Position numbers and translations under genes: made by a program. A stretch of 64,000 nt of DNA from the NCBI GenBank assembly GCA_015143295.1, contig CM026568.1, forward strand, positions 17,738,607-17,802,606, in the 5' to 3' direction. Below are positions 227 to 40,436 of the stretch, in pieces (position 1 is the stretch's first letter; every line of letters begins with the position of its first letter). The notes beneath the pieces are model-generated. The model had not been told where the DNA came from, made no database searches, and worked only from the letters and a program-made list of their open reading frames with translations. Origin of the DNA: Tetracentron sinense. Taxonomy: Eukaryota; Streptophyta; Magnoliopsida; Trochodendrales; Trochodendraceae.

Positions 227-234
227 ATGCACGT

Positions 235-13200: not shown

Positions 13201-16200
13201 ATCCTAGAAAAAAAATTTTTTTTTTTTTTTTTTTGCTTTAAAAAAATCCAAAATTTCCTAATAAATAAATAAATAATATAAAAACATGAAATAAAGTAGT
13301 AATAAGATTCTAAATCGTTTTTTTCACTAAAAAAATCATTTTTTTTCACTAAAAATATCGTTTTCGACGCAATCTGGGCCTAATCGCAGGGGGGCGCTGC
13401 CTCCCCTGCCACCCCCCCTGGCAATCGTAGGAGGGCTCTGCCTAATATTATACATAGACAATGACACGAATTTGGGTATTTTACCCAGATTTTGAAGTGT
13501 TTAATACCCCACTATGTTAACATGTCTTTGGTTATGTGATGAATACTTGTAATAGACTTTTATTTTATGTTTTTGTGGAATGTGGGTGTGGAGTTTTGAT
13601 CTTTTGGATGTTATATATATAATTATATATATATTTATATTAAATTTATCGCCTAGGCAACGCCTCGCCTAGCCGGGGCTAATCGCCTAGGCATCGCCTA
13701 GACGCCTTGACTACACTGGAGTATATAGTATATACGAGCTGAGCAGATGTAAGCTCGAGCTCAGCTCGTCAACTAAATGAGCTCAAAATTCAAGATCGAG
13801 CTTGGCTCGTTTATAAAATGAACGAGCTTTTAACGAGCCGAGCTCGTTAGCAAGCACATCTGTTAGTTAATCAGCAGTCACTAGCTCTTTAATGCTTGGG
13901 TGACAATGCCACAAGGAGACCACGTCTTAATGAGCTCCTGCCTATGCATCTAGTTGATGTTTTGACTACACTCAGTTTATACTTTACACACCTTTGTTCT
14001 CAAACTGCACATAGCTTATAGCATAGTTGTCAGGAGTTGGTACGGGGTATGGGTTCTGATGCTGGTACGATGTAGTGTAAAATCCGGGTACGTTTTATAT
14101 TGGTACAACAAAGGTATGAAATTGGTACGACATAGATACAACATAAAATTGATACGGCATAGAAACACAATAGATACAACTTAAGTACAATTTTGATATG
14201 CCATAGATATGTAATGAGTATTCAGTATGTAAGATATTGATAGTTTGATGGAACCTTGAAACTTTTTCCCTGTGTATATATGATATCTATTTTTTTGAGG
14301 CAAGTATTATATTTATGCTATTAAACTTAAGGTTACAAAATTTATGATATCATGGTGAAAACCCATAATTTTTTTAATTTTATAACCCTAAAATAAGGGT
14401 TTTAACTTGATAACCTTAATATAAGGATGTTAATATTATAACCCTTTGATAATAGAAAATTGAATAAGATTTAGTCCGTAGTAATATTGGAACTGAATTG
14501 CAAGAAAGTCAGTTCCTTTGATAAAGAAACTAGTTTCTTTGTAAGAGGAAACAGGTTTCTTGGGGGGAGGAGTTTCCAACTTATATAGAAATGCATTTTT
14601 GGAAAACTGGAAATGTTCATCTCAGTCCCCGGTACTGGCATGCATAGGAACTGGTATGAGGGATAAATAGGGTTTCTTGGTATCTATGGTGGATAGTAAG
14701 CGATAAGACATGCACATTAACATGAGCCACTTATATGCACTTACTTTCGAAATGCACCTACAAAGTCATGCAAATATTTGGTTGAAGTGATGGAAATCAT
14801 CCTTTTGTAGGATTAAATAGCAAATACCCTTGATGGTAGAGAGTCAGCTGACTTTAAATTAAATAATTACTTCTAAATGACCAAATTGTGTCCTCTCTCT
14901 CTCTCTATCTTTGCGTGTGTGTCTTTTCTGTTGCTTTTTTTTTTCTTTGTTCTTTTGACGTGTGTATGTAATAAAACTTACCTATGCACGATATTCACAT
15001 TCAATGTCAAAACCACTTTTAACCTTCCATATCTAATAGGGTTTTTTGCAAAAACCTCCCTAACTTTTCAAGTACTTGTAAATACCCCCTCATGTTTTAT
15101 GATTTTGCATTATAATCCATTAACTTTTAAATCTTTTTGCAAATACACCCTTCCATCCAAAAGTTGGTTAATGGATGTTATATTTTTATGAAATGACCTT
15201 TTTAACCTTATTTTGATTTTAAGGAGATTTGTAAAAACTTTTCAGAAGAGAAGTGTTTGGATCGCACTGACTATGGTTAAGATTCACTCACTCCTAGGAT
15301 TCATCAACTTAACCTTGGTTTTTGGAAAAAAAATATTAACGTTAGGTTTATTATGCTTAACCACGGTTAAAGTGGGCTTTACAATCTGCCATGTGTCCCT
15401 TTTAAGACTCTTAATTGTGGTTAAGATTCATTCACCCTTACGATTCATGCATCTAACCTTGGTTTTTAGAAAAAAAATATTAACCTTGGATTGGTTATAC
15501 TTAATCACAGTTAAAGGAGGCTTTAGAAGCTGTCATGTGTCCCTTTTAATACTCATTACCTATGGTTAAGATTCATTCGCCCCTAGAGTTCATGCATCTA
15601 ACCTTGGTTTTTTAGAAGAAAAAACTATTACCGTTAAATTGATTATGCTTAGCTACAGTTACAGGAGGATCTATAAGCCGCCACGTGTCCTTTTTAATAC
15701 TCACTAATAGTGGTTAATATTCACTCACCCCTTGGGTTAATGCATCTAACCATGGATTTTAGAATTATACATATATATAAACCTGATTATGCTTACCCAC
15801 ATTTAAAGGGGGCTCTACAAACCGTCACACGTCTTTTTTATTTTTTAACGCCCACTAATTGTGGTTAAGATTCACTCACCCCTTGGGTTCATGCATTTAA
15901 CCATGGTTTTTAGATGAAAAAAAAATATTAACCTTAGATTGATTATGCTTAACCACAATTAAAGAAGGCTTTACAAGCTGCCACGTATCCCTTTTAACAC
16001 CCACTAACTGTGGTTAAGTTTCACTCACCCTCTTGGGTTCATGCATCAAACCTTGGTTTTAAGAAGAAAAAAATATTAACCTTAGATTGAATATACTTAA
16101 CCACAGTTAAAGCCTCTACAAGCCGCCACGTCCCATTTTAACACCCACTAACAGTGGTTAATATTCACTCAGGTTCATGCATCTAAACTTGGATTTAAGA

Positions 16201-17634
16201 AGAAAAAAACATTAACCTTAGGTTAAATATGTTTAACCACAGTTAAATAGAATTCTACAAGCCACCATGTGTTCCTTTTAACACTTACTAACTATAGTTA
16301 AGATTCACTCACCCTTAGGGTTCATCCATCTAACCTTGTTTTTTAGATTCTTTTTATTTAATATTAACCCTAGATTAAGCTTAACCTCAATTAAAGGGGA
16401 TAAATAGAACACATGGTGACTTATATAAGCATGAGTTCCATCCAAGTCATTGAAAGAAGGTTAAAAAGGTCATTTCACAAAAAATTTAACAACCATTAAC
16501 TAGCTTTTGGATGGAAGGGTGGATTTGCAAATTTACAAATAGCTTAAAAGATAGGGGGGTTTTTGCAAAAAACCCCATCTAATATTTGCTGTATGAAGCG
16601 TAGGAAGATAATAAAAGATCCTCTCGATGAGGAAAAATAATAAGAGCACATCTTCAAGTTATCAAAGTTCCATTGACACCCTTGCACAAAACTTATGACA
16701 GTACTGGATGTGATACTTAAAATGGGAATGGTGTCACTGAAATGGACTACACAAATAGGGTGATCTATGCAGTCATTCCTGGTCCACGCATGCAGGTGAC
16801 AGCTGCTATAAAAGTGATTGGACCTAAAATGTATGAAACACCAGATAGATTAGGCAGCTCCGACTTTCCTTCTGTGAGAACATATGTGAAGGACTTGGCA
16901 CTGGTAACTATTACTGTATCCTAGCCCCTGTACCTACTCATAGGACAATACTTCAGCAGGTCCCATCTCTTATGTGGGGCATAGTACAGAAGTCAGACCT
17001 ACTGAAGACACTACCTAGAAAGGAATTTATTTCATCGACTACATGAGTGAAGCCCACTTTGGTTCCATTAGATTATGTAATATGGTGAATGGCATCAGTT
17101 GGCTTGTATAATTACATGCTATTCTTGTTAATATGTTCAAACTCTGTCCCTGTGGCTATCATTCTTGTATCTATTTTATGCATTAGAGTGCACCAATGTT
17201 TCAGATTTGTGACTAGGCATGAAATTCTGGAGTAATGGTGGGGTGTTTAAATCATTAAAAAACATGACTCCAACATTGGTCAAATCTCCAACACTGTGTG
17301 GACACCCGAAGGGACTAGTCCTTGCCTCGAATGGTATGGAACACCCTCTGTTACCTAAAAAGAATATATATATATATATATTATGTTGGATCCGGTAAGT
17401 GTAAGAATGGCTAGAACTGGTCAACTGTCTTGATGATCGGTTTTAGTCATGATCAACTTTCGTTTCCCTCTCATTCAGTGTGTATTTATCTTATTTTGTT
17501 GCTCCATCTTTTACATTGAATTGACAACTGATACATCCTTACTAAACAAACAGTACGGTGTGAATGTGAAACACCAAGAGTATTTTGCCGACAGCCCTTC
17601 AACTGGAGTTGAGCCTGCTTCAAGAGATGAATGA
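7293..17634 (+). CDS. TAF10: TAF10, TFIID/SAGA subunit (3' four coding exons)
   Basis: TAF10 is a histone-fold subunit shared by TFIID and SAGA; it acts in the nucleus in promoter recognition and co-activation. Four exons match plant TAF10 in order: 7293-7355 (IRLVAVATQKFIAEVASDAL), 8371-8428 (QCKARQSAIVKDKRDKQQK), 8507-8557 (DKRLILTMDDLSKALRE) and 17554-17634 (YGVNVKHQEYFADSPSTG... ending ASRDE and TGA). All junctions are GT/AG and the phases agree: the CAG codon is split CA|G between the first two, the rest are in phase 0. Together they give about 84 codons with no stop; the plant protein is about 134 residues. The missing part is the N-terminal exon with the first histone-fold helix, probably left of position 1. 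The last intron, 8558-17553, is 8996 bp and full of transposons. Splice sites and frame are intact, so I expect a working gene. Confidence 0.93.
7660..7985. repeat. TAACGG-type repeat inside TAF10 intron
   Basis: Words such as ATGTAGCGGTTCACTACCC, CCGTTACGAAGAC, GTAATGGTTTCAG and CATAACGGTTTCGC recur through the region. It starts near GGTTTAGAAA and ends near TTTTTAAAACC, end motifs like those of the copy at 84-226. It lies in the intron between the 7293-7355 and 8371-8428 exons. Confidence 0.5.
9088..9608. mobile_element. CAGTGTAGTCAA hAT MITE, right end lost
   Basis: The left terminus CAGTGTAGTCAAAGCCTCC begins at 9088 and is followed by CCTAGG-type words as in the copies at 5104-5291 and 13133-13718. 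The matching right end (…TTGACTACACTG) is not found before or after the adjacent LINE, so this copy is truncated or eroded. It carries a separate element at 9154-9471. The downstream boundary given is only the LINE target site. Confidence 0.55.
9154..9471. mobile_element. Nested hAT-type MITE (318 bp)
   Basis: It begins CATAGTGACAAAGTC and ends ATTTTGTTATTACA; the arms pair at 9 of 15 positions and all six differences are transitions, as expected from decay of methylated cytosines. It is flanked by 8-bp copies GTAAGGCG (9146-9153) and GTAAGACG (9472-9479), one mismatch. The interior is rich in AATTCGGGAATAATTCGG-like words. It sits inside the truncated CAGTGTAGTCAA element, so it is the younger of the two. 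Confidence 0.65.
9629..11530 (+). mobile_element. 5'-truncated LINE (L1-type) with 20-bp target duplication
   Basis: The fragment is the 3' part of a plant L1 ORF2. The first frame reads ERIQREFLWNEG...HLVDWKTI and SGGGLNIPSLIRVNKALLEK, the segment between the reverse transcriptase and the C-terminal zinc-binding region. After an insertion it resumes with GSMWRGAVTVARNG and later VSFFLWIAISNKILTSDHL (zf-RVT region), with frameshifts between. It ends in TTTACCGAT plus a short A-tract. Exact 20-bp copies of aagactagaatgtcactgca flank it at 9609-9628 and 11531-11550 (the right copy merges with the A-tail), the signature of target-primed insertion. It lies in the last TAF10 intron and on the same strand. 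It is not functional. Confidence 0.92.
9857..10403. mobile_element. Non-autonomous hAT element inside the LINE (547 bp)
   Basis: Perfect 17-bp terminal inverted repeats, CAGTGTTACCTAGGCAC on the left and GTGCCTAGGTAACACTG on the right, are flanked by perfect 8-bp target duplications GTTTTGGT (9849-9856 and 10404-10411). The duplication lies in LINE codons for WRFG, so removing the element restores the LINE reading. CAGTG ends and 8-bp duplications are typical of hAT. There is no transposase; short open frames inside are chance frames. Confidence 0.95.
11868..13876. mobile_element. Candidate 2-kb hAT-type element with CGAGC-rich ends
   Basis: The left end TAGGGGTGATGCCGAGCTGAG starts at 11868, like the terminus of the better defined element at 35769-36288. 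CGAGCTCG/GGCTCG words fill about 11880-12062 and 13730-13860, as expected for related subterminal regions. An 8-bp word GTCACTAG occurs just outside at 11860-11867 and at 13877-13884. The right terminus itself does not read CACCCCTA, so it would have to be diverged. No transposase was recognised in the middle. The pairing of the two ends is inference. Confidence 0.45.
13133..13718. mobile_element. hAT-type element, CAGTGTAGTCAA family (586 bp)
   Basis: Termini CAGTGTAGTCAAGGCGTCGC and GACGCCTTGACTACACTG are near-perfect inverted repeats, flanked by identical 8-bp target duplications GAGTATAT (13125-13132 and 13719-13726). Subterminal regions are rich in CGCCTAGGCG; the middle is AT-rich and non-coding. 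It is the best preserved of three family members here (others at 5104 and 9088) and sits inside the candidate element at 11868-13876. Confidence 0.93.
14034..14689. repeat. Possible hAT-type element with GGTACG repeats
   Basis: The left part begins CATAGTTGTCAGGAGTTGGTACGG and is followed by repeated TTGGTACGAC/GATACGGCAT-like words; GGTACTGG-like words return near 14620-14690. The CATAGTTG start resembles the terminus of the element at 55025-55426. The right end and a target duplication are not convincing, so this is tentative. Confidence 0.3.
15039..16575. mobile_element. Mutator-like element with long terminal inverted repeats (1537 bp)
   Basis: The left end GGGTTTTTTGCAAAAACC and the following 150 bp or so are matched in reverse at the right end (…GGTTTTTGCAAAAAACCC), including the shared block with CACCCTTCCATCCAAAAG and AAATGACCTTTTTAACC. 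The element is flanked by 9-bp words TATCTAATA (15030-15038) and CATCTAATA (16576-16584), 8 of 9 identical. Long inverted repeats and 9-bp duplications fit Mutator-like elements. No transposase is present; the interior is a tandem array, listed separately. It lies in the last TAF10 intron. Confidence 0.8.
15265..16400. repeat. Eight tandem ~147-bp subrepeats
   Basis: A unit containing GTGGTTAAGATTCACTCACC, then TTCATGCATCTAACC, a TTGGTTTTTAGAA word, an A-tract with TATTAACCTTAG, TGCTTAACCACAGTTAAAG, and GCCACGTGTCCCTTTTAAC repeats eight times. The ATTCACTCA anchor falls near 15281, 15427, 15565, 15718, 15867, 16019, 16160 and 16303 (spacing 138-153 bp). Each unit holds a GTGGTTAA...TTAACCAC inverted pair. 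It makes up the interior of the Mutator-like element. Confidence 0.88.
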
Positions 17635-19962
17635 GCTGGGGTTTGATCCGTATGACAAATGATTCGGAGTTGTTTAATCTAGTCCGAGTCCATTTGGATG
17701 GTGACGAGACTACAACAGGTGAGGCTAGGTTACTGTTTCATCAGTCATATGTACTTGGTTGTGAAAGATTCTTGATGCAAGGAAGTCATTGTATACATAA
17801 TACATTTATGCCATTTTATTAGGGAAAACAGAATTCTTTGGTCCCATGATCTTGTAATCGAACATACTTGCTAAAAGCAGGAATCATGGTGCTTTGTTGT
17901 CATTAGAGGAAGATGGTATTGATTTCCATTGCATACTCCGCTATCTTATAACCGTTTCATATAGTGAGATTGGTTGGACCCAATGCTGAAGCTCATCACT
18001 TTCACTGAATCAAAAGGTCACATGATCTCAATTTAATCCATCTGTTCCACTTTGACAAGAGTTCTTTGGTTGAGTCTTCATTGTTGTTTCTGTCTGCACT
18101 TGAAAATTGTAAGTCCAGCCTTTTCAATGGAGATATATGCTTTCCTTGTTTCTTCTTGTTCTTTCTCCATCTATACTGACACAAGGATCTTTACTGGTGT
18201 GCTCTGGTGCTAAACCTTGGATGGACTATGATCATAGTTACTGAAAGAAATCCAAACATCCTAGGTGGTGCTCTGGGGCTAAACCTGTGGTGGAGTATGA
18301 TTTAGATTTATAGTTATTAGAAATTCAATCATCCAGAGTACACAGTATGGAACGATGAGTTGTTGGGCAGCATGTTGACAATGTTATGCCTTTTGACGGG
18401 AAATCTAGTATTGCTCGATGTCCTTGAGCTTCGAGTTATGCCTGGCATGCAGGGGATTGAGATCCAATAATTTATGAGTTTCACCCAAGTGATTGCAAGG
18501 CAAGATTTATATAAGGATCCATTATTTTGCTGAGACTTATAAAGCTTGACATTTTGCACTTTGTCATGGTAATTGTTAGGAATTTTGAGTCACTTTGTCA
18601 AGGTTTCTAACATAATTATTTTCTTATCATCACGAGTTTTGAAGTCATCATTTTTTTTGAGATTTGAAATCATTCATTTGAAATTGTATTGGAATTGCAA
18701 CCAAATAGATGAAGAGTCGATCTATGGGTACTCTCAAATCTACTCCCTAACCACTAAAGGTCAGGATTTGAATTGTCTAATTTTGTCTTTTCCGATGCCA
18801 CATCAGCTCTAATCCTAACTATTTAATAACTGAGATAAACGGTTAGGATTTGGGAGTACATCTTTGGGAGTATACCTAGACTAATTCATAGATAAAAAGG
18901 CACGATACATCTAAGTTATCAAAAGAAAATGAATATTATCAAATGACAAAACTTGCAAAATACCAAAACTTGCAAAATACCGGACTTTATGCCTCAGACC
19001 TAACAGGAAATTTGATTCTACTCAATTTTAAATTGAATAAAAAGGTTTTGGGAAAAATAAAATCCAGATAAAGACTTATTTAAGGTTTAGGTTCTTAATT
19101 TCGTTCATTTGATTGATAAATCAGAATTGGGAGAATATGAGCTTGCCATATGTCAGATAGGCTGAACGATTGTCACAGGGCTCACTGAAAGTAGCTTTAC
19201 CGAAACTGAGCAAGAGCTATATCATATGTGGCAACCATTAAGAAGAATGCCATTAAGAAGAATGCCATCGATCCTGCAGAATTCGTATGCTTTTTAGCAT
19301 TCTTGTGATCTTGTCCTAATTACTCGAAAGTCTCATTGTTGTGCATCTTCCAAATACCTTCAGTAGCACTAACTTTTTTTTTTTTTTGGCCTAAGAGATC
19401 TTTCTGTGACACTCCTTTTGTTTACATATCTGAAAATGCCCAGCTTGATCCTGTTTCACAACCCAGAAATGCATGTTCCCAAGATAAGTAATGGTAGAGG
19501 ACTTGAAATTCTCTACTGTTTTAACATTCCTTCGATTTTTTTTTCCATCCTTTGATGGTCTTTGAACAGATTTGGTGGGGTCATAGAGCTTGATGAATTT
19601 TTTTTTCACTCAATCAAATTCGAAAATGGACTGCCAATGGAGAAAAGGTATGTTTCCATCTCTCCCTAAAGCTCAATTTTTAATCCAGAAAATTACAAAA
19701 ATAATGTTTTTCTTAGACAAAAATGAGGGTTTAAAACTGAAAAGAGGAATGGATGATGGATTTATCTTTTCGTCTCTCTAAAGCTATTTTTGTTATGAGC
19801 CTAATTGCCAATTTAGAAACCGTAAATAATTTTTCCATCACTCTTAACAATTAGCTAATTGTTTTGGAAAATCAAAATAATGTTAGTTTCTTTCATTGAT
19901 AATGCATCTTATTGTTTGTATTAATGAAAATTTTCATACAAAAACAGATAAAGAAATGAGGA
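17635..19962. other. TAF10 3' flank; no further gene seen
   Basis: The first few hundred bases after the TAF10 stop codon probably hold its 3' UTR, whose end I cannot fix. The rest contains short open frames without recognisable motifs. A poly-T run near 19376-19389 may be a retroposon tail. Nothing else is supportable. Confidence 0.4.
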
Positions 19963-21085
19963 TTGAAGGTCTTGAATCTAGATGGCTCATTCAATGTCAA
20001 TATCAATATCATTCCTCTAAATGAAACGAGCAATAACGATTTCACACCAAAAGTAGGCACGAAATTCAAACCTGAAGATGATGCTTTAAAGTTCTACAAT
20101 GGATATGCAAAAAAGATTGGATTTAGTGTTCGAAAAAACAATAATTTTTTTAGAAGTGGTGTAATTGTGAATAGAACATTTTGTTGCTCTAAAGTTGTTT
20201 TTTGTTTAAATGATAGAAGATATGAAAATATTAAGAAACCCCGTCTGGAAACAAGGATTGGCTGCAAGGCAGATATGAGAATTTTTCTTCGAGATAAGTG
20301 TACATATGTGGTCTATCAATTTGAACCAAATCATAACTACAATGTAGTACCACCTATTATGACTCACTTATTTAGATCACATAGACAACTGACTACTGCC
20401 CAGGCTGCAGAAGCTGAAATAGTAGATAGTTCAGGGATAGCACCATCAACCGTTGTGGAATTAATGAGTAGGCAAGCCAATGGTCATGAGAACCTTGGGC
20501 TTATTACTACTTATTATGACAATTATTTACGATCCAAGAGAAATTCAATGAAAAAAGGAGATGCAGGGGGATTATTACAGTATTTTTAAAAGAAGCAATC
20601 GGAAAACCCACTTTTTTTTTTATGCTTTACAACTTGATGAAAACGAATTGATTACAAATATTTTTGGGCAGATGTAGAGATGATGATTGGATTATAGTTA
20701 TTTTGGTGACGTCTTTTATTTTGATACAACATACAAAACAAACACAGAGAATCGTTCGTTTGGATTATTTGTTGGAGTAAATCACCACAAACAGACCATT
20801 ATATTTGGTGTTGCTTTGTTGTATAATGAAACAACAGAAACATTCAAGTGGTTATTTGAGATTTTTGTTAAAGCTAAATACATTCAAGTGATTATTTGAA
20901 ACTTTTGTCAAAGTTATATCTAGAAAAAGTCCAAAGACATTTATTGGACTATGGTAGAAGCTAAAAGTTGAGAAAGATCACTGACAGGATTGATATAAGA
21001 TTTCATCGGCATGTTTTGCTGTAGTAAATGTGATTGCTTAGTTGAGGTTGAACCCCACTTGGACTCTGGTGCCAATTTTGAAATA
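19963..21085 (+). pseudogene. FAR1/FRS-type, MULE-derived protein remnant
   Basis: FAR1-related proteins derive from Mutator-like transposases; family members are either host transcription factors or active transposases. The first frame (19963-20589) carries the FAR1 DNA-binding domain: GTKFKPEDDALKFYNGYAKK, then GFSVRKNN, NRTFCCSK, a RIGCKADM core and NHNYNVVPP. The second frame (20687-20899) begins the MULE transposase domain with [13 protein letters not shown] and [14 protein letters not shown]. After 20900 only stop-ridden traces remain, including KCDCLVEVEPHLDSGANFEI-like words near 21030-21085. Stops and a frame change separate the two parts, and the rest of the transposase domain and the SWIM zinc finger are missing. 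Non-functional copy; whether it was a host FRS gene or a transposon cannot be told from this. Confidence 0.85.
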
Positions 21086-21268
21086 TATGAGGTGAGTTAG
21101 TACTCTTTTGATTATTCTTATATTTTATGATGGATTATGGAGTTGGACTATTGAAAATTTTATATGTTATTATTACCTCTCAAAATACACAAAAAGTTGT
21201 CTCTTATGTCTATAAGAAGAGACATTTGTGACTAAGTTATCTATCAATTTTGAGAAAGCAGCTATTTA

Positions 21269-21884
21269 GAGCATCTCCAACACTATCCCTATTCAGAATA
21301 GGGAGGATGAAGAAGAAACATGCACTCTAACAAGCTCCTCAAAGCAAATTGCCAGGGTAGGGAGGGCGTTTCAGCTGGGAGACGTTTTGGCTCTCCAGAT
21401 ATTATTAAATTCATTTTTTAAAAAACCTCCTTCAAAACTGTTTGCCTCAACCATAGCCAATTGCGATTGAACTAATAAGGGAGAGTTCAATCGCACCCAC
21501 ATGCCAACACGTGTCCCTTTTAACTTCTACTAACCGTGGTTAAGACTCATTAACCCTTGGGTTTAGCAAAATAATCTTAGTTTTTAGAAAAAAGTATTTA
21601 AAAATATTTAACTCTAGTTAAGAATTTTTAACTTTTATAGTTATTTTTTTGAAATCCAATGTTTAAAGAGACACGTGTTGGCCGGTGGGTGCGATTGAAC
21701 TCTCAACAATTGCAATGATGTTAAATAAAATGAAATAAAAAAAATGACTGTTTAATAGAAATAAAGAAGAAATAAGGACTAGTGTTAGAGTTGCAAGGAG
21801 AAAAAATGACTCCCTATTTTAAAAAAAAACTCTCTATTTTAGAGAAAAAATAGGGAATTGTTAGAAATAGTGATGGAGATGCTC
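21269..21884. mobile_element. PIF/Harbinger-type (Tourist-like) MITE (616 bp)
   Basis: Ends read GAGCATCTCCAACACTATCC and, in reverse, GAGCATCTCCATCACTATTTC. The element is flanked by TTA on both sides (21266-21268, 21885-21887). GAGCATCTCCAAC ends with a TTA duplication are typical of Tourist-like MITEs. A second fold-back element (about 21455-21716) is inserted in it. Confidence 0.88.
21455..21716. mobile_element. Fold-back MITE with CAATCGC/CACGTGT module, nested
   Basis: Left arm words GCCAATTGCGATTGAACT, GAGTTCAATCGCACCCAC, CCAACACGTGTCCCTTTTAA and CCGTGGTTAAGACTCATTAA are repeated in reverse in the right arm (AGAGACACGTGTTGGCC, GTGGGTGCGATTGAACTCTC). It sits inside the Tourist-like MITE. 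Boundaries are approximate. The same words build the MITE at 32135-32424 and occur in the Helitron array and the Mutator-like element. Confidence 0.72.
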
Positions 21885-22394
21885 TTACGTAGGTATTTGT
21901 TTCAAAATGTATTACATTATAAATAGGTAGAGCTTATTTAAAAATTGAGTTTAGTTGACTTTAGATTGTTAAGTTAAAGGTTAATTGGATGTCTAAGATC
22001 TTCTTGAAGTAGAGGTTTTACCTCTAAAGTCCAACTAAGCTCAATTTTTAAATAAGTTCTACCTATTTAGATTAGTGTTACCAAATACCACCTTAATGTT
22101 ATCTTATACAATGTTCCGAGTGACATACACTAAAAATTCTTCCAATTGATCCACATCTTGTATGCTTATGTCAAAACAAGTGCTTGAATCAACAGTTCTT
22201 ATCCTTGACGGGCCATCATTAGAATTCTAATTCTTCCACAAGATTTCATGGAGTTTGACAGGATAATTCAGAGGTTTGAGTTTGATATTGTTTAGTCGTG
22301 CTTAAATCACCAACACATTCTTATAATCGTTGATCCTTTAATTTCTCATTCCACCAAAATAATTTAATCGTTTGTGTTAATTTACTATTATTGA

Positions 22395-25507: not shown

Positions 25508-25515
25508 GCAAGAAC

Positions 25516-28415: not shown

Positions 28416-29387
28416 CTAGTGGCAGGTGCAATGCATGTGAGAGCAAGGGGAAGGAGTTGACCACAGTTAATAAGAATTAAAAGGGGCACGTGTTAACCCA
28501 CAGGTGTGATTGAACTCTCCCCAAGGTCAATCGCGATTGGTTGTAATTCTAAATAGATAGATGGTAAGGGGTAGTTTAGGAATTAAAGTAAAACATTAAA
28601 TCAAAGGCAAGAGTAGTTTGGGAATTAAAGTAAAATATTAAATCAATGTTTTGTTTTTATATAAGGGTAATTTGGAAATTTCATAAAAATCATCTACGCA
28701 TGCCTCTCGCATTATAATAGTAAAGACACGTGCAATGCTTGTGAGAGCGAGGGGAAGGAGTTAACCACAGTTAATAGGAATTAAAAGGGGCACGTGTTAA
28801 CCCACAGGTGTGATTGAACTCTCCCCAAGGTCAATCGCGATTGGCCGTAATTCTAAATAGATAGATGGTAAGGGGTAGTTTAGGAATTAAAGTAAAACAT
28901 TAAATCAAAGGCAAGAGTAGTTTGGGAATTAAAGTAAAATATTAAATCAATGTTTTGTTTTTATATAAGGGTAATTTGGAAATTTCATAAAAATCATCTA
29001 CGCATGCCTCTCGCATTATAATAGTAAAGACACGTGCAATGCTTGTGAGAGCGAGGGGAAGGAGTTAACCACAATTAATAGGAATTAAAAGGGGCACATG
29101 TTAACCCACGGGGGAAGGAGTTAACCATAGTTAATAGGAATTAAAAGGGGCATGTGTTAACCCACGGGTGTGATTGAACTCTCCCCGAGGTCAATCGCGA
29201 TTGGCTGTAATTCTAAATAGATAGATGGCAAGGGGTAGTTTAGGAATTAAAGTAAAATATTAAATAAAAGGCAAGGGTAGTTTGGGAATTAAAGTAAAAT
29301 ATTAAATCAATGTTTTGTTTTCATATATGGGTAATTTAGGAATTTCGAAAAAATCTACGCATACCTCCCGCATTATAATAGTAAAGA
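28416..29387 (-). mobile_element. Tandem Helitron array, three ~304-bp units
   Basis: Three head-to-tail copies start (+ strand) near 28427, 28732 and 29033 with GTGCAATGC(A/T)TGTGAGAGC and share GGAGTTAACCACAGTTAATA, TGATTGAACTCTCCCC, GTCAATCGCGATTGG and two AGTTTGGGAATTAAAGTAAA-like words. On the - strand the right edge is A|TCTTTACTATTATAATGCG, a Helitron-like 5' end, and the left edge is TGCATTGCACCTGCCACTAG, a Helitron-like tail. Inside the array each tail word GCATTGCACGTG runs directly into the next TCTTTACTATTATAATG. The third unit has an internal duplication of about 60 bp. No Rep/helicase is present. Confidence 0.75.
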
Positions 29388-30380: not shown

Positions 30381-30484
30381 CTCCATTAATTAATTAATTT
30401 ACATAAACAAGACCACTTTCATCTCTTGAAGAAAAAGAAAAAAAAAAACAAACTAAAAAGGAGTAAAATCACTTAAAACATTAA

Positions 30485-31627: not shown

Positions 31628-31900
31628 GGCTTCTCTTCTTCTTCTTCTTCTTTGCTTCTGGGGATTTGGGTTTACGCCAAAAAAAAAAGTAGAGAATTTT
31701 GAGTGAAGAAATCAAAGAACTTCAAGAGAGTAGTATTAAAATTGAAAGACTGAAGTTGGGTTTTAGAGAGAGAGAGAGAGAGAGAGATGGGTTTGGGGTA
31801 TGAAAGGAGATTTTTGAGTTGAGAAGATGATCAAAGAACTTCAATGGAGTTTGACTTTGAGAGAGAGAGAGAGAGAGAGGCGTCACCTTTACGTTTCCAA
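31628..31900 (-). promoter_or_regulatory. CT-rich 5' UTR/promoter of the 30485-31627 gene
   Basis: On the gene's strand, runs of CTCTCT at 31859-31879 and 31765-31787 and a CTT repeat at about 31630-31655 lie just upstream of the ATG. Pyrimidine-rich tracts close to the start are common in plant core promoters and leaders. No clear TATA box was picked out. Confidence 0.45.
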
Positions 31901-32134
31901 AACAGAGGATTCATGAAAGGCAATAGAGTAGTGTCTGCAAGCTATGATTAATGATTGTGGATGTAACAGGAAATTGAGTGAAGGATTGGACAAACTTGTA
32001 ATTAAGTTTTCCTCTTCCCTCCTTCCACTGCTGGCTGCTGCTATTAAACAACTAGACTCACTAGAGTATATTATTGCTACACCGGCTGGCTTTTACCAGT
32101 GGTACTACTGTGTAATCCTTTCGAGGACATCAGA

Positions 32135-32424
32135 TCACAGCCAATCGCAATTGAACTCGGGGAGCGTTCAATCGCACCCACAGGTATCCCTTCTAACCAC
32201 GGTTAAGATTCACTCACCCTTCGGGGTCAATAATATAAAATTGGAAGTTTTTATAAAAAATTAGTCCTATGGTTAAAATTTCTTACACCTAGAGTTACTT
32301 TTTTTTCTTTCTAGAAACTAATGTTAGATCATTGAATCTTAATTAGGGCTAATAACAGTTAGAAGGACACGTGTTTGACACGTGGGTACAATTAAACTCT
32401 CCCCAAGTTTAATCACTATTTGGT
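32135..32424. mobile_element. Fold-back MITE with CAATCGC/CACGTG module
   Basis: Left arm AGCCAATCGCAATTGAACTC, GCGTTCAATCGCACCCAC, TTCTAACCACGGTTAAG; right arm, reversed, ACCAAATAGTGATTAAACTT, GAGTTTAATTGTACCCACGT, CACGTGTCCTTCTAAC. Same family as the element nested at 21455-21716. The ends are approximate. Confidence 0.65.
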
Positions 32425-32469
32425 GTGATTCAATCTCCCCTTCAATGGGTGTTTAGGATTCCCTTCACT

Positions 32470-32738
32470 CGAATGACGTACTACCCTACCTCTTGCGTGG
32501 GTGTGGCCTTCGGTGAAGGGATGTCTGATGATCCAATCCCCTCTTCGGGTATGAGTTGCAAGAGCTCGAATGCCCAAGCTAACATGGTAGGGTGTGGCCT
32601 TCAATAGATGGAGGTTTGGGGATTGAATCTCCCCCTTGTATAAGTTGCAAGAGTTTCAATGCCCAAGCTAACATGTGACCATATTGACCCAAATAACGTA
32701 GGTAAATGATGCCAACTCCCAAAAAAAAAAAAAAAAAC
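32470..32738 (+). mobile_element. SINE-like retroposon, family B
   Basis: Contains CCTCTTGCGTGGGTGTGGCC, GGGATTGAATCTCCCCC and TTTCAATGCCCAAGCTAAC and ends in an 18-19 nt A-tract at about 32719-32737. The 5' region is partly duplicated (GTGTGGCCTTC occurs twice). The same words occur on the - strand in the SINE at 36908-37068. Confidence 0.6.
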
Positions 32739-32820
32739 GTGTAGCAGTTGATAGCCCACAAAGTTTCAGCTCACTTCTAGGTCCGGACTTTCTAATTCAC
32801 TGCTAACCAATGTTAATTGG

Positions 32821-33031
32821 GGATGGGATTTGGTCTTGCTGTACCAAGACCAAAACAATCTTGCCTATGTATAACATCCAACATGTGGGAGGGAGAAGTT
32901 ATTTCATTTTCCCCCCAATTTTTTGACTTCTTTCCCTTTGATATCTTCTCCAATTTTTATCGGCAAACGTCAAAAGCCCACGAAGAATAAGACGGTTTTG
33001 ATCTTGCTAGAGCAAGATTAAATCCCATCCC
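32821..33031. mobile_element. Mutator-like MITE (211 bp)
   Basis: Ends GGATGGGATTTGGTCTTGCT and AGCAAGATTAAATCCCATCC are inverted repeats of each other. Perfect 9-bp target duplications GTTAATTGG flank it (32812-32820 and 33032-33040), the Mutator-type length. Non-coding interior. Confidence 0.9.
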
Positions 33032-33189
33032 GTTAATTGGGGTTATAGTTTAATTGTATTTTGACTAAAAACAAATAGAGGATATGTTGGGGATTGCTAG
33101 CCACGCATAATTAATGTTTTTTATCAGTACAGATAATTAAATTTTATTCCAAATTCTCAAGTGAAACAACTGATCATATTGTTACCCCT

Positions 33190-33503
33190 CAATGGTTGAA
33201 AACAAACTAAACACACTCCGAAATCTAGTGTCCTCTACAAAGATCAAAATGGAAATCTTACAAGTCCACTCAGTTAATCACATTTGGAAAAAATCAAATC
33301 AAGTAGCTGACGTCTTAGCCAAACTGTGCAATCCCAATACTTCCAAAACCTTTTTACCAGGAGATTTGCCTCCACAGCTTGTTTCTCTTATTGAAAAAGA
33401 TAGATGGGGATGTAAATTTCCAAGAATGTAATTCCCTTTTGGTTTATTTATCTGGTAGGGATCTGCCTAACCCCAGCTTATCCTCCAGAAAAAAAAAAAA
33501 AAA
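33190..33503 (+). mobile_element. LINE 3' remnant (RNase H C-terminus)
   Basis: The frame contains VHSVNHIWKKSNQVADVLAK, the end of the ribonuclease H domain of plant L1-type ORF2 (typically W...NQVADALAKL), and is followed by a short 3' UTR and an A-tract at about 33488-33503. Strongly 5'-truncated. No target duplication was identified. Confidence 0.75.
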
Positions 33504-33504
33504 A

Positions 33505-34123
33505 GAACAAATGACTCAAGGTGAAATTATAAGTAGGTCGATACGAAATTATTTGTTTTATTATTTAAAAATGGTGAAAATAGAAATTGTGAGAGAATGC
33601 TTAGCGCTTTTTTTTTAAGAAGACCATTAGTTCGTCACATTTACTCTAATTTTAGTCAAATTTACTCCAATTTTTCCACATAAGCAAGATTGGGTTTAAC
33701 ACATGGAGATGTTTTATATTTTAACAGTTTTAAAAAATACAAAACAAAGAATGTTTGACATTTGTAGTCATCCAGTTGCGTCTTTGGAAGATTTGCAACT
33801 GAGTATAGCAAAATCTTTTTTTCGAAAAAAAGAAGTTATGCTTTGTGCCTATTACAAGAAAAACAATTTAAATACAAGCGGAGCACTTCACAGTGTTGAA
33901 GTAGAGTTCCTTTTTTACACTACGACGGTGACACTTTTATTATCATGAAAAAAAAAATTACAAAATTACCCATGTCACTTTTGTTAATTACAAAAGTGTC
34001 ACAACCAGTGTAAAAAGGAAAGCTTCGTTTCTACGCAATGAAGCACACTCAAAATAGTCTCCAAGTAAACTAGTAACACTTAATTGCTACACTTATAGTT
34101 TTCAAGTAAAATAGTAACACTTA
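33505..34123. other. No gene seen
   Basis: AT-rich non-coding sequence. AAAAGTGTCAC(A) occurs in direct and inverted form near 33930-34010, a possible small fold-back repeat. No protein family recognised in short frames at 33541-33948. Confidence 0.35.
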
Positions 34124-34274
34124 CCCTATGTTTAATTGCCGAAAAATAGGTGAAAACATGAAGAAGAAGAAAAAGCAAATTGGACAAATTACAACAAAAA
34201 AATTGTATTAGAAATTTGAAATTTTTTTTTTTTTTTTATGTTTTCATCTATTTTCTCGACAACCCAACATAGCA
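34124..34274. mobile_element. Harbinger-like MITE (151 bp)
   Basis: Arms CTATGTTTAATTGCCGAAAA and, reversed, CTATGTTGGGTTGTCGAGAA; TTA on both sides (34121-34123 and 34275-34277). Second copy of the family seen at 23111-23258, with the same GTGAAAACATG-type subterminal words. Confidence 0.78.
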
Positions 34275-34889
34275 TTATTAATTGCTACACCTGTGGCTGT
34301 CATAATGGGAAACTTGAAAATGCGCGTTTATATAGCATTTCTCACCAACGCTCGTAAAAGTTTACTTACATACGCCGACCTGCACCTTTCATGGTTACTT
34401 TTGCCACCACCTTTTCTTCTGGCGTTTTGGCTCTTTTGAGCAAAATGACATAAATTCTCTTCTCTCTTAACTCTCCCTCTCTTTTATCAGTGAATGAAAG
34501 ATCAACTGACTGTGACACACCCACATTCATTTGTCCACTTCTTTATTTCTAAGCATCTATCAGAGCAGGATCTAAGGTCGTTTTCCTTATAGATTATGGA
34601 CACGTGACATGCTGACACTTTGATTTTGGCCCTTCAGCTAATCCGCGATGGCTTTTCTTTTCTTTTGTTTTAAAGATTAATCGTACTCAGAACTTGACGA
34701 TTTAGATCCAATCTAGACTTTTTGCCCATTTACAAGTGAACTTGAGACTGACTCAGTGAATATCCAAATGAAGTATTCAATTTCATATTCAATTCAATAT
34801 TTGAATATCCAAATTGGTATTCGATTAAATATTTGAATATCCAAATTCGGTTGAGAAAAATAATAACCTCCTCGATCATTAAGGTGATT

Positions 34890-35065
34890 TCCCGTCTCAA
34901 CCCCTTTTTTGTTTCATGTGTCTCACCTTTTTGTTTTTTAATTGTGGTTAAGATTCACTAATCATCAGGATTAAATTATCTAACCTTATTTTTAAGGAAA
35001 AAAATTTAAAAATTAATCATAAGGGTTAAAAAGTTGTTAACCATAGTTCAAAGGGGCTTTGCGAG
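34890..35065. repeat. Fold-back remnant with GTGGTTAAGATTCACTA module
   Basis: AATTGTGGTTAAGATTCACT and TCTAACCTTATTTTTAAGG lead to a partial inverted partner AGGGTTAAAAAGTTGTTAACC. This is the same module as the tandem units at 15265-16400. Ends not defined. Confidence 0.5.
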
Positions 35066-35311
35066 AGCGAGAATAAATAATCTCCTCCCTAATTGAGGGG
35101 CCTATTGCTTTTCGGTTACATATTTGACACAGATAGTAAAACAGAGTATCTATATCTGATTTTAATTAAAATATTTAATTTTAACTAATATCTGAATTAT
35201 ATAATTATTTTAAAATAAAATTAAAAGAGAAAAAAATATATCAACCATGTGTCCTTACTAAGCCTACCTTAATGCTAACATTCTTCTAAGAAGGGGCTGA
35301 GCTGACAGAGC

Positions 35312-35488
35312 AAAACTGGGAATACCCAGTGATAGGTGTATCCCTTCCTTAGGAAGGAGGTTCCAGGCTCCATTCCCGAGAGGGTGAGAGTGGGTTGCAC
35401 TCTCCATCTGCCTTTGACTTAGAACAGATATTGACTTGCTAACCGGGGTTGCGGCCTAACCGTGTGTCATAAAAAAAAAAAAAAAAAA
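35312..35488 (+). mobile_element. SINE-like retroposon, family A, with A-tail
   Basis: GTGTATCCCTTCCTTAGGAA, GGTTCCAGGCTCCATTCCCG (box-B-like), GAGTGGGTTGCACTCTCC, TTGCTAACCGGGGTTGCGGC and CCTAACCGTGTGTCAT are followed by an 18-nt A-tract. AGCTGA occurs just before the element and just after the tail, a possible short target duplication. Best copy of the family here; others at 27668-27830 (-) and 29838-30112 (+). Confidence 0.72.
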
Positions 35489-35768
35489 GCTGAACTACCT
35501 ACTTGTCCAAAGGCAAGGCTGCTAGCAACTTATAAATTTTATTTTCCTACCAAAAAAATTCTATTTAAAATAATAAACTGATATCTCATCCTCATCCAAA
35601 TATAAAATAATATCTCAAAATTATATAAAAATACTTATTTATTACTATATATATTGTAGTCTATATATATATATATATATATAATCAACCGAGTATTTAT
35701 CAAATTAGATATACCAATATTAAAATTCGTATATGATTATCAACGGATAATAAAATTGCTATTTGAAA

Positions 35769-36288
35769 TAGGGGTGTATTCAAACCGGACTGAGCCAAGC
35801 TTGACCATGCTCGGCTCGGCTCAACTTGAAAGAGTTTACGCTAGGCTCGAAGCTTGGCTCGGCCCGAAATGGTGCTCAGAAAATCAGCTCAAAGCTTGGC
35901 CCGAATTCGTAAAGCTTGGCTCGAAGGTTGGTCCGAATTGATTCAAGCTCGAGCCGGGCTTGAGGGCTTGACTTAGCTTGAGCTTGGCTTGAATACTTTT
36001 TAAAAAATAAAAAATAATAAGAATATTTTATATTATTTATATATATAATAATATATATATAAATAATATTTTTATTTTCTTTATTTATTAAATAATATTC
36101 GAGCCAAGCTCGAGCCGAATCGAGTCGGGCCGAATCAAATATGTCTTAGCTCAAGTTCAGCTTGAACATATTTCAAGCTTAAAAACTCGGCTCAGCCCAA
36201 ACCAAGCCTAAAAATCAAGCTTGAGCTTGGCTTGATCAGGCCAAGCTGAGCCGAGCAATCAAGCTAGCCCGACTTGAGTACACCCCTA
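35769..36288. mobile_element. hAT-type element, TAGGGGTG ends, CGAGC-rich (520 bp)
   Basis: It begins TAGGGGTGTATTCAA and ends TTGAGTACACCCCTA; the target duplication ATTTGAAA is exact on both sides (35761-35768 and 36289-36296). Subterminal regions are packed with GGCTCG/CGAGCC and AAGCTTGG words; the middle is AT-rich. The same left end defines the candidate 2-kb element at 11868-13876. Confidence 0.93.
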
Positions 36289-36484
36289 ATTTGAAATCAC
36301 TCCAACGAACAGTTATTCAGGTAATTATCTGAAAACAAATTTAAATATGAATAATATCGGGTATTCGTGCATGCTCTTAGGGGTGATTAATTGATTATGG
36401 GTTGTTTTATATTTAGTGAACTTCAATTGGATATAGCAAATTTTAATTTCTGAGTTGAAATGAAGTTAAACCCAAACCCAAATC

Positions 36485-37112
36485 AATTATAAAGAAAGTT
36501 ATGAAAGTTAAATCCAAACCTAATCTGCGGGTCCAAGATATACATCTCGTCACACTTCTGTGCCAAGAAAAAACCTCCTATACGTTTTTATGAGAGCATT
36601 GTTCATCTACATCTATCTCAATTAGCCATCTATCCAATTATAAAGAAAGTTAGGAAAGTTATTTCCAAACCTAATCTGCGGGTCCAAGATATACATCTCG
36701 TCACACTTCCTGTGCCAAGAAAAAACCTCTTATACGTTTTTAGGAGGGCATTGTTCATCTACATCTATCTCAATTAGCCATCTATCCAATTATAAAGAAA
36801 GTTATGAAAGTTATTTCCAAACCTAATATGCGGGTCCAAGATATACATCTCATCACACTTCCTGTGCCAAGAAAAAACCTCCTATACGTTTTTAGGAGGG
36901 CATTGTTTTTTTTTTTGGTGATTGAAATTCTTAGTAGAGTCAGACTGTCAGTAGGGCTTAGCTTGGATAGTAGAGCTCTTGCTTACTCTTACCCGGGTGG
37001 GATTAGATTCCTAGACCTCCAACATGGGAAGGCCACACCCCTACCACTCACGCAAGAGGTGGGGGTGTGGGCATTGTTCATCTACATCTATCTCAATTAG
37101 CCATCTATCCAA
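36485..37112. repeat. Three tandem copies of a 151-bp unit
   Basis: Units starting near 36485, 36636 and 36787 share AATTATAAAGAAAGTTA, CTGCGGGTCCAAGATATACA, CCAAGAAAAAACCTCCTATA and ACATCTATCTCAATTAGCC at more than 95 % identity by eye. The third unit is split by a SINE (36908-37068). No coding frame runs through the array. Confidence 0.92.
36908..37068 (-). mobile_element. SINE-like retroposon, family B, 10-bp target duplication
   Basis: The insertion splits the third copy of a 151-bp tandem repeat and is flanked by GGGCATTGTT on both sides (36898-36907 and 37069-37078). A poly-T at the left edge shows it is on the - strand. On that strand it reads CACCTCTTGCGTGAGTGGTA, GGTGTGGCCTTCC and GGTCTAGGAATCTAATCCC, and ends in poly-A. 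Same family as 32470-32738. The intact copies of the tandem unit prove the empty site. Confidence 0.9.
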
Positions 37113-37440
37113 TCATTGCAATTGATGGTCGATGGAGAGAAAAAAAGAGATCTTCGAAAAGTGAGTTTTTATAATAAAATAAACATTCAAACTTATTAAA
37201 TGTTCTTGCTATTTTATATTTTCTTGAAAAGGGTGCTCAAGCTACATGAACTGTTCATGATATTTCAAAGACGACAGATTTTTAAGAAACAAATTAATGT
37301 AGGAGTGCATCTCTTATAGGGTGGACTTAATTTTAAGTCCCTTAAGTGAACAAGTTTATAATATATTCACCAATTTATTAATTTACTAACCATAGATCAC
37401 CTTCAATAAATAATATCTAAACAAGTAAAAAATAAAAATA

Positions 37441-37609
37441 AAGGGGTAGACCAGTGGCTCCTGGGCCTTTCCCCAAGTGGGAGGTCGTAGGTTTCATTTC
37501 TCACTCCGCCTTTGGGCCTGCCTCGCACGGGTTTACTTAGACTTACGCTGTTATAGCGGGCTCACGTTGCACCTCGATTAGTCCTGACCCAAAGGTTCGA
37601 AAAAAAAAA
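37441..37609 (+). mobile_element. SINE-like retroposon, family C
   Basis: GGGGTAGACCAGTGGCTCC (box-A-like), GGTCGTAGGTTTCATTTC (box-B-like), GCCTCGCACGGGTTTAC, ACTTACGCTGTTATAGCGGG and GATTAGTCCTGACCCAAAGG end in TTCG plus an A-tract. The order box A, box B, unique 3' part and A-tail is that of tRNA-derived SINEs. No clear target duplication. Confidence 0.65.
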
Positions 37610-38990
37610 TTGTGTGACATGCTAACCAAGTAAAGCATTAGTAAAGCCATGACCATCTTGAGTGTGGGACCCAATCCGAGTTGGCATGGTGTACACGTGT
37701 ACAATACACTCATGCGCAGAATAGGGTGTACCGTGTAGAGGGAGGTCACGGCCCTAGCTACAGCCTAAGGTCTATTTTTAACTTCAATCAAAGCACCAAA
37801 GCTAATATGATGTGTACATGTGTCGGTTAACGTGTCGTAGTGAATAAGTGTTTTTCGCTTGTCTTTTCAAGGGTTGTAAATTTAACAAACAGAAAGGGCA
37901 TACTTGTCAAATTAAGTCTGATAGACACACCTATTAGTCTATTACCATTTACCGCTTAGCAGAAGCACGTCTCCTTCTGCTTCCATGATGGGTAGACCGC
38001 ACGCACGCACGCACGCCTCATTAATCGATTAATTAGATAATAATTTCTCTTTTAATTAATTAATTAATGTGGGTAATGATCATGAGGCCTGCTGGTCCCT
38101 TCCATTAAGAAAAGTTTGTGACATCAATCTAAGACCCTTATTTATAATCTAGATGTTGATGTGTAACAGTGTTTTGAGACAAGTTAAAAGGCAATATGAG
38201 GAGGGTTTGAGGTGTAGTTACCATTGTCATCCAGTTGTACTCAAAAAAGTTACTAAGAAAAACAAAATCATCACCATTGGCACCATCTCTACTGAATTCC
38301 CATCAATCCTGATTGATCCTCATCAATCCCGATTGATCCTGAGTTCGATCCCGTCGTCCTGGTCTTTCTTGTTTCTTGATGTGTGTGGTTTGCAGGATAT
38401 TGGACGTATTCTCCTGCATTAGTTCTAATCCAAATGGGTGGGTCCAAAAAAAAATCTCTAATGAATTTACAGCCCCAATTCCAAATTTAGGATGGTAAGC
38501 TGATGTAATCCAGTCATATCCAAATTCGATCCGATTAGATATATTTGGTAGACCCTAATTCGATTCGAGATCCATGGGGCCCTGACTATCAATTCACGTC
38601 TGAATTTGATTACTTATTTACGCTTCGAATTTGAGGTGAGTTCTGCCTGATTAATGTTAGATTCCGTTAAAATATTTTTCTATGATTTAGAATAAAGGAA
38701 AAATTAACTGCTGCATTAGGATGTATGAACAAATGTAATTTTTATTTATTAATTTGTATAAAAACCTAAAAGAATTTTGTAGCTGTCTTAAAAAAAAGAA
38801 AAATAAATTTATAATTTACTTTATAAAATTGAATTGGAATTGATAAATTAATTCGAAACTTCAAATGTATTTCCGATGGATCTGTAATAGGGTCACGATC
38901 GGCGCTTGTCATATCAAATCTGATTTCAAATCCTAACCCAACTACCCTTTTTGGTGACCCCCTGGGGGCCATTGGGCCTTGGCTTGCCTC
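37610..38990. other. No gene seen
   Basis: Non-coding. Contains a short (GCAC)n run at about 37998-38014 and TTAATTAATTAATTAAT at about 38050. A frame at 38153-38422 has no recognisable motif. Confidence 0.4.
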
Positions 38991-39248
38991 TGGCGAAGCC
39001 AGAAAGGGCTTATCTCGGGGTTCCATAGAATAAGTGACATGTGGTGGAGAAGTCAAAATCATGGGGCCATGATTTTGACTTCTCCACACACAAATGGACA
39101 TGTGGCGATAAGTGTTTGAGAATAAGGAGAAGAGATATCAAATGGGGAGAAGTCAAAAATCATGGGAGAAAATAAATGACTTCTCCCCATTTTGCTGCCA
39201 GCTGCCGCACAATGTATGGAACCCCGAGAGCCCTTTCTGGCTTCGCCA
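38991..39248. mobile_element. Fold-back element (258 bp)
   Basis: Starts TGGCGAAGCCAGAAAGGGCT and ends with its reverse complement (AGCCCTTTCTGGCTTCGCCA). The arms extend inward through CGGGGTTCCATA and GAGAAGTCAAAATCATGG, the latter present four times in alternating orientation. A target duplication was not found. Confidence 0.75.
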
Positions 39249-40079
39249 TGAACGGATCACTCAATAATGCGATTATATGTTTCTTTGTGATTATAAATAT
39301 AATTGGTTATTTAATGTCATGTAATTTTATCAATCATGTACTCATCTCATGTTGTTAGGTGTGCAACATTGCGCAAATTTGTAGCATGCGGGCTCGCTAC
39401 GTTGTGTATTAACAACCACAGCTCTTATCCAGTTCCTATCCAAAAAAATAGTCTCTGAGAAGATAGTTATTGAAGTAAGAAATAGTAGCAAGTAATTTTG
39501 ATAGCTATTGAATCTATCTGAAAGTGTGTAAATTCCATAGGTTAAGAATGTTGGAGCAACAATTAAAGGGATCTCTCCTGTAATCTATTCTCAATAAATT
39601 TACAAAAGAAAATTGAACATCTCCAATTGATTATATATGGGAACCGATTTGATCTCTTATAACCACTTATGCCAAGATTATGACGGCATTATAGCTTTTG
39701 GACCAGTTATGTAAACAAACCATAATTCTAAAACTTGGCGAGTCACCTGAGTTACTCGACTCAACTAAATTTTGAGTCGAGTTGCATCAAAACTCGAAGG
39801 AGACACTATTTTGGTTTGAACCGTCATAAGCTATTATAAAACAACCAGTTATGTAAACAAACCAGTGTCTGTTTCCAACCTGGATTATTAATCTACCCAA
39901 CCAAGGATATTTAGGTAGGTGAAATATCAGAATCTATGTGGTGGCATTTGGCAACAACAGTTTAGAAGCAAAATTTATGCAAGTGGGTATCCGGAAAACT
40001 TCCAGAAACCAATATGATCTCTTAGATTGTCACAATTACCACTTTAAATGGAACCAAAAACCCCATGACAACATGTTTG
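39249..40079. other. No gene seen
   Basis: Non-coding. The word CCAGTTATGTAAACAAACCA occurs twice (about 39703 and 39844), with TTATAA..CCACTTATG and GTCATAAGC nearby, suggesting a small decayed repeat. If the phosphoglycerate mutase gene once extended here, I do not see its further exons. Confidence 0.4.
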
Positions 40080-40436
40080 GAAGCCAAATTCTCTACGGTG
40101 ATAACCGGATTAGGCAAATCCAGTTATCACCCCTTGAGGTAGCCACGTGTCCCTTTTGACACCCTTTTAACTGTGGTTAAGATTCACCCACCCCTAGGAT
40201 TCACCCACCCATCCTTGGTTTTTTTTATAAAAATATTAATTCTTTTTTTAAAATTAAAAAACTGATTTAAAGGTTTTTCTAATATTAAAATATTTTTAAA
40301 AATATTTAATATTTTTAAATTTAAAAAAAAAAACAAGGATGGGTGGCTGAATTTTCACTTCAGTTAAGGGGTGTCAAAAGGGACACATGGCTACCTCAAA
40401 GGTGATAACCGGATTTGCCGTAGAGGATTTGGCTTC
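40080..40436. mobile_element. Fold-back MITE with CACGTGTCCC module (357 bp)
   Basis: Arms: GAAGCCAAATTCTCTACGG, GTGATAACCGGATT, TTGAGGTAGCCACGTGTCCC, TTTTGACACCC, TTAACTGTGGTTAAGATTCA and CACCCATCCTTGG, each mirrored in the right arm, which ends CCGTAGAGGATTTGGCTTC. Flanks CATGTTTGG and CATTTGG could be a 9-bp duplication with a 2-bp loss. It carries the same inner module as the tandem units of the Mutator-like element. Confidence 0.78.

Follow-up and report, generated by a model that had tools for sequence, protein, structure and literature searches.

A conserved inner module beneath different tips in Mutator-type fold-back elements, and in a Harbinger/Tourist-like MITE and a Helitron, of Tetracentron sinense

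How do the same short sequence words come to stand in the same order in transposable elements that appear to belong to different classes? The question is raised by 64,000 nucleotides of the Tetracentron sinense genome (assembly GCA_015143295.1, contig CM026568.1, positions 17,738,607 to 17,802,606 of the forward strand), the whole of which we call the window. The original prediction held that three words recur in Mutator-like tandem units, in three fold-back MITEs, in a remnant, and partly in a Helitron array, and suggested either that a module had been passed among element classes, or that a MITE, once captured by a Helitron, had gone on to spread.

The shared module and its carriers

An approximately 80-bp module, CACGTGTCCCTTTT...GTGGTTAAGATTCACTCA...CTTGGTTTTTAG, is collinear across the elements listed below, with copies drawn from the 1.16 Gb plant genome in which the window lies; it forms the subterminal arm in fold-back elements of the Mutator type, and is 70-90% identical between families while the 50 bp outside it are mostly unrelated.

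230-374, plus strand: Helitron 3′ piece carrying some of the block; two 3′-end-like stretches, CTAG then T
15030-15038 and 16576-16584: 9-bp repeat flanking the MULE, TATCTAATA/CATCTAATA, with one mismatch
15039-16575, plus strand: tandem-unit MULE with 14 matching terminal bases, GGGTTTTTTGCAAA
15265-16347, plus strand: tandem array of a 144-bp unit, about 7.4 copies (TRF), with a module in each and 8 HMM hits
21269-21884, plus strand: Harbinger/Tourist-like MITE with TTA on each side and a putatively F-derived interior
21455-21704, plus strand: the putatively F-derived core, comprising left tip hairpin, module, loop, inverted box, and partial right tip
28416-29387, minus strand: Helitron tandem array, 5′ TC at 29387 and CTAG 3′ end at 28416-28419
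28761-28845, minus strand: F arm in a Helitron unit (BLAST); others at 28457-28540 and 29103-29206
32126-32437, plus strand: F element, a Mutator-type fold-back MITE with a module in each arm and, in its family, 9-bp duplications
32181-32248, plus strand, and 32373-32311, minus strand: modules of F (HMM and arm layout)
34915-35058, plus strand: R remnant, a decayed single module; related copies in loci L011, L013, and L054
40080-40436, plus strand: G element, a second Mutator-type fold-back MITE, with tips of GAAGCCAAATCCTCTACGG plus a hairpin

The two long words and CAATCGCACCCAC were sought with up to 3 mismatches, and CAATCGC exactly, on either strand. CACGTGTCCCTTTTAA followed by GTGGTTAAGATTCACTCA occurs with no more than 3 mismatches in the tandem units and, outside them, at 21508/21536, 32181/32199, and 40144/40173; words two and three thus keep the predicted order there and in the copies at 21455, 32135, and 40080, but the remnant has the third word only, its box having decayed beyond recognition at 3 mismatches. 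CAATCGC does not survive as a word common to all: the exact form lies at 21463-21494, 21691-21697, and 32142-32175 and in the Helitron units (either strand), but is missing from both strands of the tandem units, of 40080-40436, and of the remnant. One scan of viral contigs with the 18-base word gave no match.

When the named regions were compared with the whole window by BLAST, the tandem array matched 40142-40239 (98 bp, 80%, E 4e-18), 21499-21588 (91 bp, 76%, E 1e-11), and 34915-35009 (97 bp, 76%, E 1e-11), and 21455-21563 matched the Helitron array (109 bp, 75%, E 1e-14); the copy at 32134 matched the Helitron units over 46 bp (89%). Searched against 200 dinucleotide shuffles of the window, the tandem-unit consensus scored at most 38.3 bits, compared with 91.5, 68.9, 53.6, and 50.0 bits for its real matches beyond the MULE (at 40142, 21508, 34939, and 32193, respectively). 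Its direct score against the Helitron units was 34.6 bits, equalled in 3 of the 200 shuffles and therefore within shuffle range, so the link between tandem units and Helitron depends on the copies at 21455 and 32134.

The window also holds two ORFs that are possibly retroelement remains, one at 57127-57633 (minus strand) with zf-RVT (E 9e-9) and one at 62661-63038 (minus strand) with DUF4283 (E 9e-5, below its cut-off), as well as tandem arrays at 48447-48929 (a 64-bp unit repeated about 7.6 times) and 36484-36907 (a 152-bp unit repeated about 2.8 times with 95% matches).

Boundaries and mobility of the elements

Loci fetched from the genome, with module-bearing stretches or with element ends only as queries, are labelled L001-L117; no more than the best 40 candidates were scored for each query, so that the counts given here are lower bounds biased to close copies, and family labels follow motif rules of our own choosing. 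Expected numbers of 9-bp repeats were obtained by pairing the flanks of different copies within one set.

The tandem-unit MULE has terminal inverted repeats, and 7 of 14 copies (15 were tried, one with a poor end) are flanked by 9-bp repeats when at most one mismatch and end shifts of up to 3 bases are allowed, against 0.69 expected. Array copies in the genome carry 3 to 9 module hits each, and 10 of 16 also have a module arm in the opposite direction (HMM). Seven other full-length copies are collinear with the window copy and about 89-90% identical to it, whereas the units inside the window MULE are only about 73-78% alike, which suggests that the array probably arose in an ancestor and was afterwards mobilised as a whole. 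Nine MULE ends lacked an adjacent array match; six of these had shorter arrays, and the remaining three (L109, L114, and L116) were diverged behind the left tip, had no right tip within 1.78 kb, and looked truncated. Nine among the 42 array matches listed are clustered within about 153 kb of one contig (C12, 4.00-4.15 Mb).

For F, 30 loci were reduced to 20 when repeated flanks were dropped and to 18 with both ends; 9-bp direct repeats (at most one mismatch, shift of at most one base at the tip ends) flank 12 of the 18, against 0.0 expected, and 10-bp repeats only 5. Four of the 9-bp repeats are perfect (TACTTATTT in L045, ATGGAATGG in L049, ACTGAAGTA in L050, and GGCTTGAAG in L054); the repeat of the window copy has decayed, with 3 mismatches. 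The G set comprises 16 copies (20 fetched and the window copy, minus 4 duplicates and one with a poor end), 8 of which have 9-bp repeats where 0.07 were expected (shift of at most one base), with none at the window copy. Both families have terminal inverted repeats, fold-back arms with modules, and palindromic tips, and are non-coding as judged from the ORF list; in G the module is present in each arm and a strong hairpin follows the GAAGCCAAATCCTCTACGG tip. Folding energies of the tip consensuses are -20.4 kcal/mol for F and -30.3 kcal/mol for G. By duplications and layout, F, G, and the tandem MULE are one kind of element, and there have consequently been fewer class crossings than first appeared.

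Yet other palindromic tips overlie the same module: K in L005 (377-638 and 796-1057), P in L014 (2340-2477), and N in L024 (2256-2490). Tips N, P, R, and others were found upstream of the module in the flanks of fetched loci, and the K element in L005 has, by eye, a 9-bp repeat, ATAAACATT. An R-type element also sits inside a copy of the Harbinger-type MITE (L011, about 1040-1480, minus strand), where by eye, compared with intact copies, some 10 bp of the target have seemingly been lost and no duplication is seen.

The fold-back MITE predicted at 21455-21716 is not free-standing, a possibility ruled out by copy boundaries and by TTA/TAA ends, but is the interior of the element at 21269-21884, which we read as a Harbinger/Tourist-like MITE. 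When 30 copies were compared with an extended window, long matches stopped near 21266 and 21888, at Harbinger-type ends (GAGCATCTCCAACA, with TTA or TAA outside); both ends were found by motif in 25 of the 30, and 13 of these 25 have equal flanking 3-mers, all TTA or TAA, against a chance value of 6.96 that is high since only two words occur. No flanking duplication longer than 3 bp was found among the 25. A genome search with the left end only gave 38 matches and 37 candidates, every one of which was scored. Among 20 newly fetched copies, 16 contain the core and 4 (L098, L100, L101, and L104) lack it, having instead a common alternative interior that is 78-86% alike over 215-557 bp; only L100 has the right flank too, and the other three may be longer elements. 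The core itself is, by eye, F minus its outermost left bases and most of its outer right tip. We regard the core-less copies as the clearest evidence of acquisition, the age order of the forms being one that we infer. About 0.7 kb before the MITE is an ORF of 208 aa (19963-20586, plus strand) whose FAR1 DNA-binding domain matches Pfam PF03101 at E 2e-19, as suits a plant genome; from it we draw no link to the tips of the module elements.

The Helitron units, on the minus strand, start with TCTTTACTATTATAAT and finish with a hairpin and CTAG, and so display both the 5′ TC (TCTTTACTA) and the 3′ hairpin with CTRR. The 3′ end is CTAG in the window and in L045, with one-base variants TTAG in L017 and ATAG in L019; these three single copies are followed by T and preceded by A (L045 and L017) or T (L019), and the 3′ end of the array is followed by C. 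The block is a single F arm, running from the tip to GTGGTTAA and lying directly before the 3′ terminal part, so the module is partly present in the array as predicted, but on the minus strand and stopping after GTGGTTAA. One CTAG is retained at 28416-29387 and the final bases of the 3′ end are missing at the inner junctions, an arrangement that would fit rolling-circle replication past a lost 3′ signal. The Helitron 3′ piece at 230-374 had been missed in the original prediction; palindromic repeats of the TAACGGCCGTTACG type are present at 95-133 and close by.

Descent of the module and competing explanations

Pairwise identity between consensus cores is 0.70-0.90 (z 8-20) for F, Harbinger, G, the tandem MULE, K (4 sequences), and R (2 sequences). 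By the same test, the 50 bases that lie outside CACGTG show no relation except between F and Harbinger (0.86, z 13.8), between F and K (z 4.5), and weakly between G and K (z 2.4); in the tandem MULE the upstream bases mostly belong to the previous unit, and the tip comparison is uninformative there. In an unrooted tree of the core (84 columns, 73 rows), the tandem units form a single clade (96/85), the Harbinger copies are placed beside those of F, and a wider grouping (95/92) joins the tandem units to 15 of 16 G rows, to K and N, and to three R rows from the genome; the window R row, present twice (as R and x), stands apart from the three genome R rows. On the core alone, monophyly of F is not rejected (p 0.11) and that of G is (p 0.0017), partly since the G label took in N-like rows. 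An unrooted tree of tip plus box (96 columns, 60 rows) separates F, Harbinger, and Helitron rows from G, K, and N (100/100), with the Harbinger and Helitron rows among the F rows. An F-only clade is rejected (AU p 2e-6, with one misfiled row, L050_939, which is labelled F but is really Helitron), and so are the Helitron rows as one clade (p 0.00025); the Helitron rows at 2811 in L045, L046, L051, and L055 are near-copies without the outer half of the tip. Label changes number 11 compared with 45 for shuffled labels on one tree, and 7 compared with 33 on the other; labels are thus strongly clustered, and exchange looks rare rather than constant.

The consensus alignment and phylogeny, envisaged in the original prediction as the way to learn which class carried the block earlier, place Harbinger and Helitron rows among F rows when tip and box are used. 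Transfer among classes stands insofar as the module lies in elements with the appearance of Mutator, Harbinger/Tourist, and Helitron, but the MULE and two of the three supposed MITEs have proved to be of one kind; conversely, the possibility that all are pieces of one family holds for F, G, and the tandem MULE but fails for Harbinger and Helitron.

We favor, with a probability of roughly 0.6, the reading that Mutator-type fold-back elements own the module as the inner part of their arms, and that a Harbinger MITE and a Helitron acquired F-derived sequence and spread it; F is the likely donor. By sequence, F and G each have their own palindromic tip, the module, and an AT-rich loop, then the same parts in reverse order, and the tandem MULE has a longer tip; the 9-bp duplications suggest that a Mutator-type transposase moves all three. 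The collinear copies suggest that the module multiplied head to tail in an ancestral MULE, whose array would then have been copied as a unit. A Harbinger/Tourist-like MITE would have exchanged a different interior for most of F, clipped at its ends; a Helitron would have gained a single F arm beside its own 3′ end; and each would have spread the acquired sequence afterwards. Acquisition is argued by the existence of Harbinger copies without the block and by the position of Harbinger and Helitron copies among F copies, and since the outermost ends of F are missing in both hosts, we think that the step was probably capture during break repair; insertion of F, eroded later, may alternatively have come first.

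That insertion could also be the whole story, F having transposed into the ancestral Harbinger MITE and the Helitron and been carried along, with the clipped ends due to later erosion. Nested insertion is common, F is mobile as its 9-bp duplications show, and the left border lies near an F end in both hosts; yet neither host shows the outermost bases of F or flanking 9-bp repeats, and the Harbinger interior has been replaced rather than merely interrupted (borders by eye), so we consider plain nesting the less probable course, at perhaps one chance in a few. Considerably less plausible is that the module is a transposon in its own right, a solo fold-back core beginning at CACGTG that entered many elements: the outer border at CACGTG is indeed sharp between families, but the duplications sit outside the tips, and by eye none of 24 hits without a recognised tip looks like a solo core with flanking repeats, the inverted box being missing in 8. 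The block in isolation with its own duplications, which the original prediction had proposed to look for, was accordingly not seen among those 24 hits.

We give slightly less credence still to the Helitron or the Harbinger MITE as the source from which the Mutator-type elements took the module, a direction that short, unrooted trees leave room for. The Helitron arm is single and truncated, block-less Harbinger copies exist, and G, K, and N rows carry the same module apart from every Helitron and Harbinger row. A Helitron source finds no support and was rejected, the Helitron having one truncated arm only and rows that fall among F; of the suggested capture of a MITE by a Helitron and its later spread, the truncated F arm bears out the capture, but there is no sign that the Helitron was the spreader. 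Chance or convergence of short motifs we discount almost completely: CACGTG, within the box, is a common plant regulatory word, but the BLAST blocks are collinear, their scores exceed those of 200 shuffles, and the family consensuses match at z 8-20. Short chance matches without collinear identity, against which the original prediction had guarded, are refuted save for the direct match of tandem units to Helitron taken alone.

Exchange of tips and comparison with known systems

Element families are usually defined by their tips, which bind transposase, and the interior is expected to vary. Here the reverse is seen: the interior is constant beneath tips that differ in three or more families bearing 9-bp duplications, and it has passed into a Harbinger MITE and a Helitron as well. 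An annotation based on internal similarity would lump unrelated classes together, and the presence in one genome of Harbinger copies with and without the block makes the acquisition step testable and datable.

One tentative explanation, to which we give well under even odds, is that the module was kept while the terminal palindromes were exchanged time and again (F, G, K, N, P, and others); if so, one module lineage would have been driven by several transposases, its arms also being taken up by elements of the Harbinger and Helitron classes. The hairpin tips may be related to one another and change on both strands at once, as in CCGGACT/AGTCCGG compared with TTGAACT/AGTTCAA, but these paired changes between families are a hint, seen by eye. 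Within families there is little covariation, with 3 double-change cells compared with 3.8 shuffled in F, 2 compared with 1.8 in the Harbinger copies, and 9 compared with 3.2 (reached in 3 of 500 shuffles) in a G set that includes N-like rows, and copies thus appear to decay freely. Retention of the module while tips change could, as speculation, point to a role in transposition.

Fold-back MULEs with composite arms and sequence capture are already known; the unusual part is a constant inner module beneath different palindromic tips in several families. No plant example of a single module spanning Mutator, Harbinger, and Helitron elements was listed in a literature mostly outside subscription journals. 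MuTAnT of Medicago truncatula, named alongside FARE of Arabidopsis, is, in the portions of the account used here (PMC4486113), a Mutator-like fold-back family of about 200-300 bp with modular long arms and 9-nt duplications, resembling the elements described above; by description, MuTAnT is one family, whereas here several families have a common inner module and different tips. The Tm1 Mutator/Foldback elements of root-knot nematodes, as far as the portions used describe them (PMC3169594), likewise have composite arms, internal repeats, mostly 9-bp duplications, and MITE-like members, but are from an animal and are defined as a family by terminal motifs, whereas here the tips differ and the inner part is common.

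Uptake or sharing of repeat pieces by Helitrons and MITEs is also known, according to excerpts of PMC12628747, PMC5139131, and the ModuleOrganizer paper (PMC2955051). Rolling-circle tandem arrays of truncated Helitrons, reported by Xiong et al. 2016 as cited in the excerpted PMC12628747, resemble the present array in having tandem units with multiple 5′ ends and only one 3′ end, but the array here differs from them in having one Mutator-type MITE arm per unit. The occurrence in mollusc Helitrons of sequence also known from satellites and MITEs is similar in that a repeat occurs in and outside several kinds of element with truncated borders, but that case concerns animals and satellite monomers, and no Mutator or Harbinger partner is seen in the excerpted account (PMC5139131).
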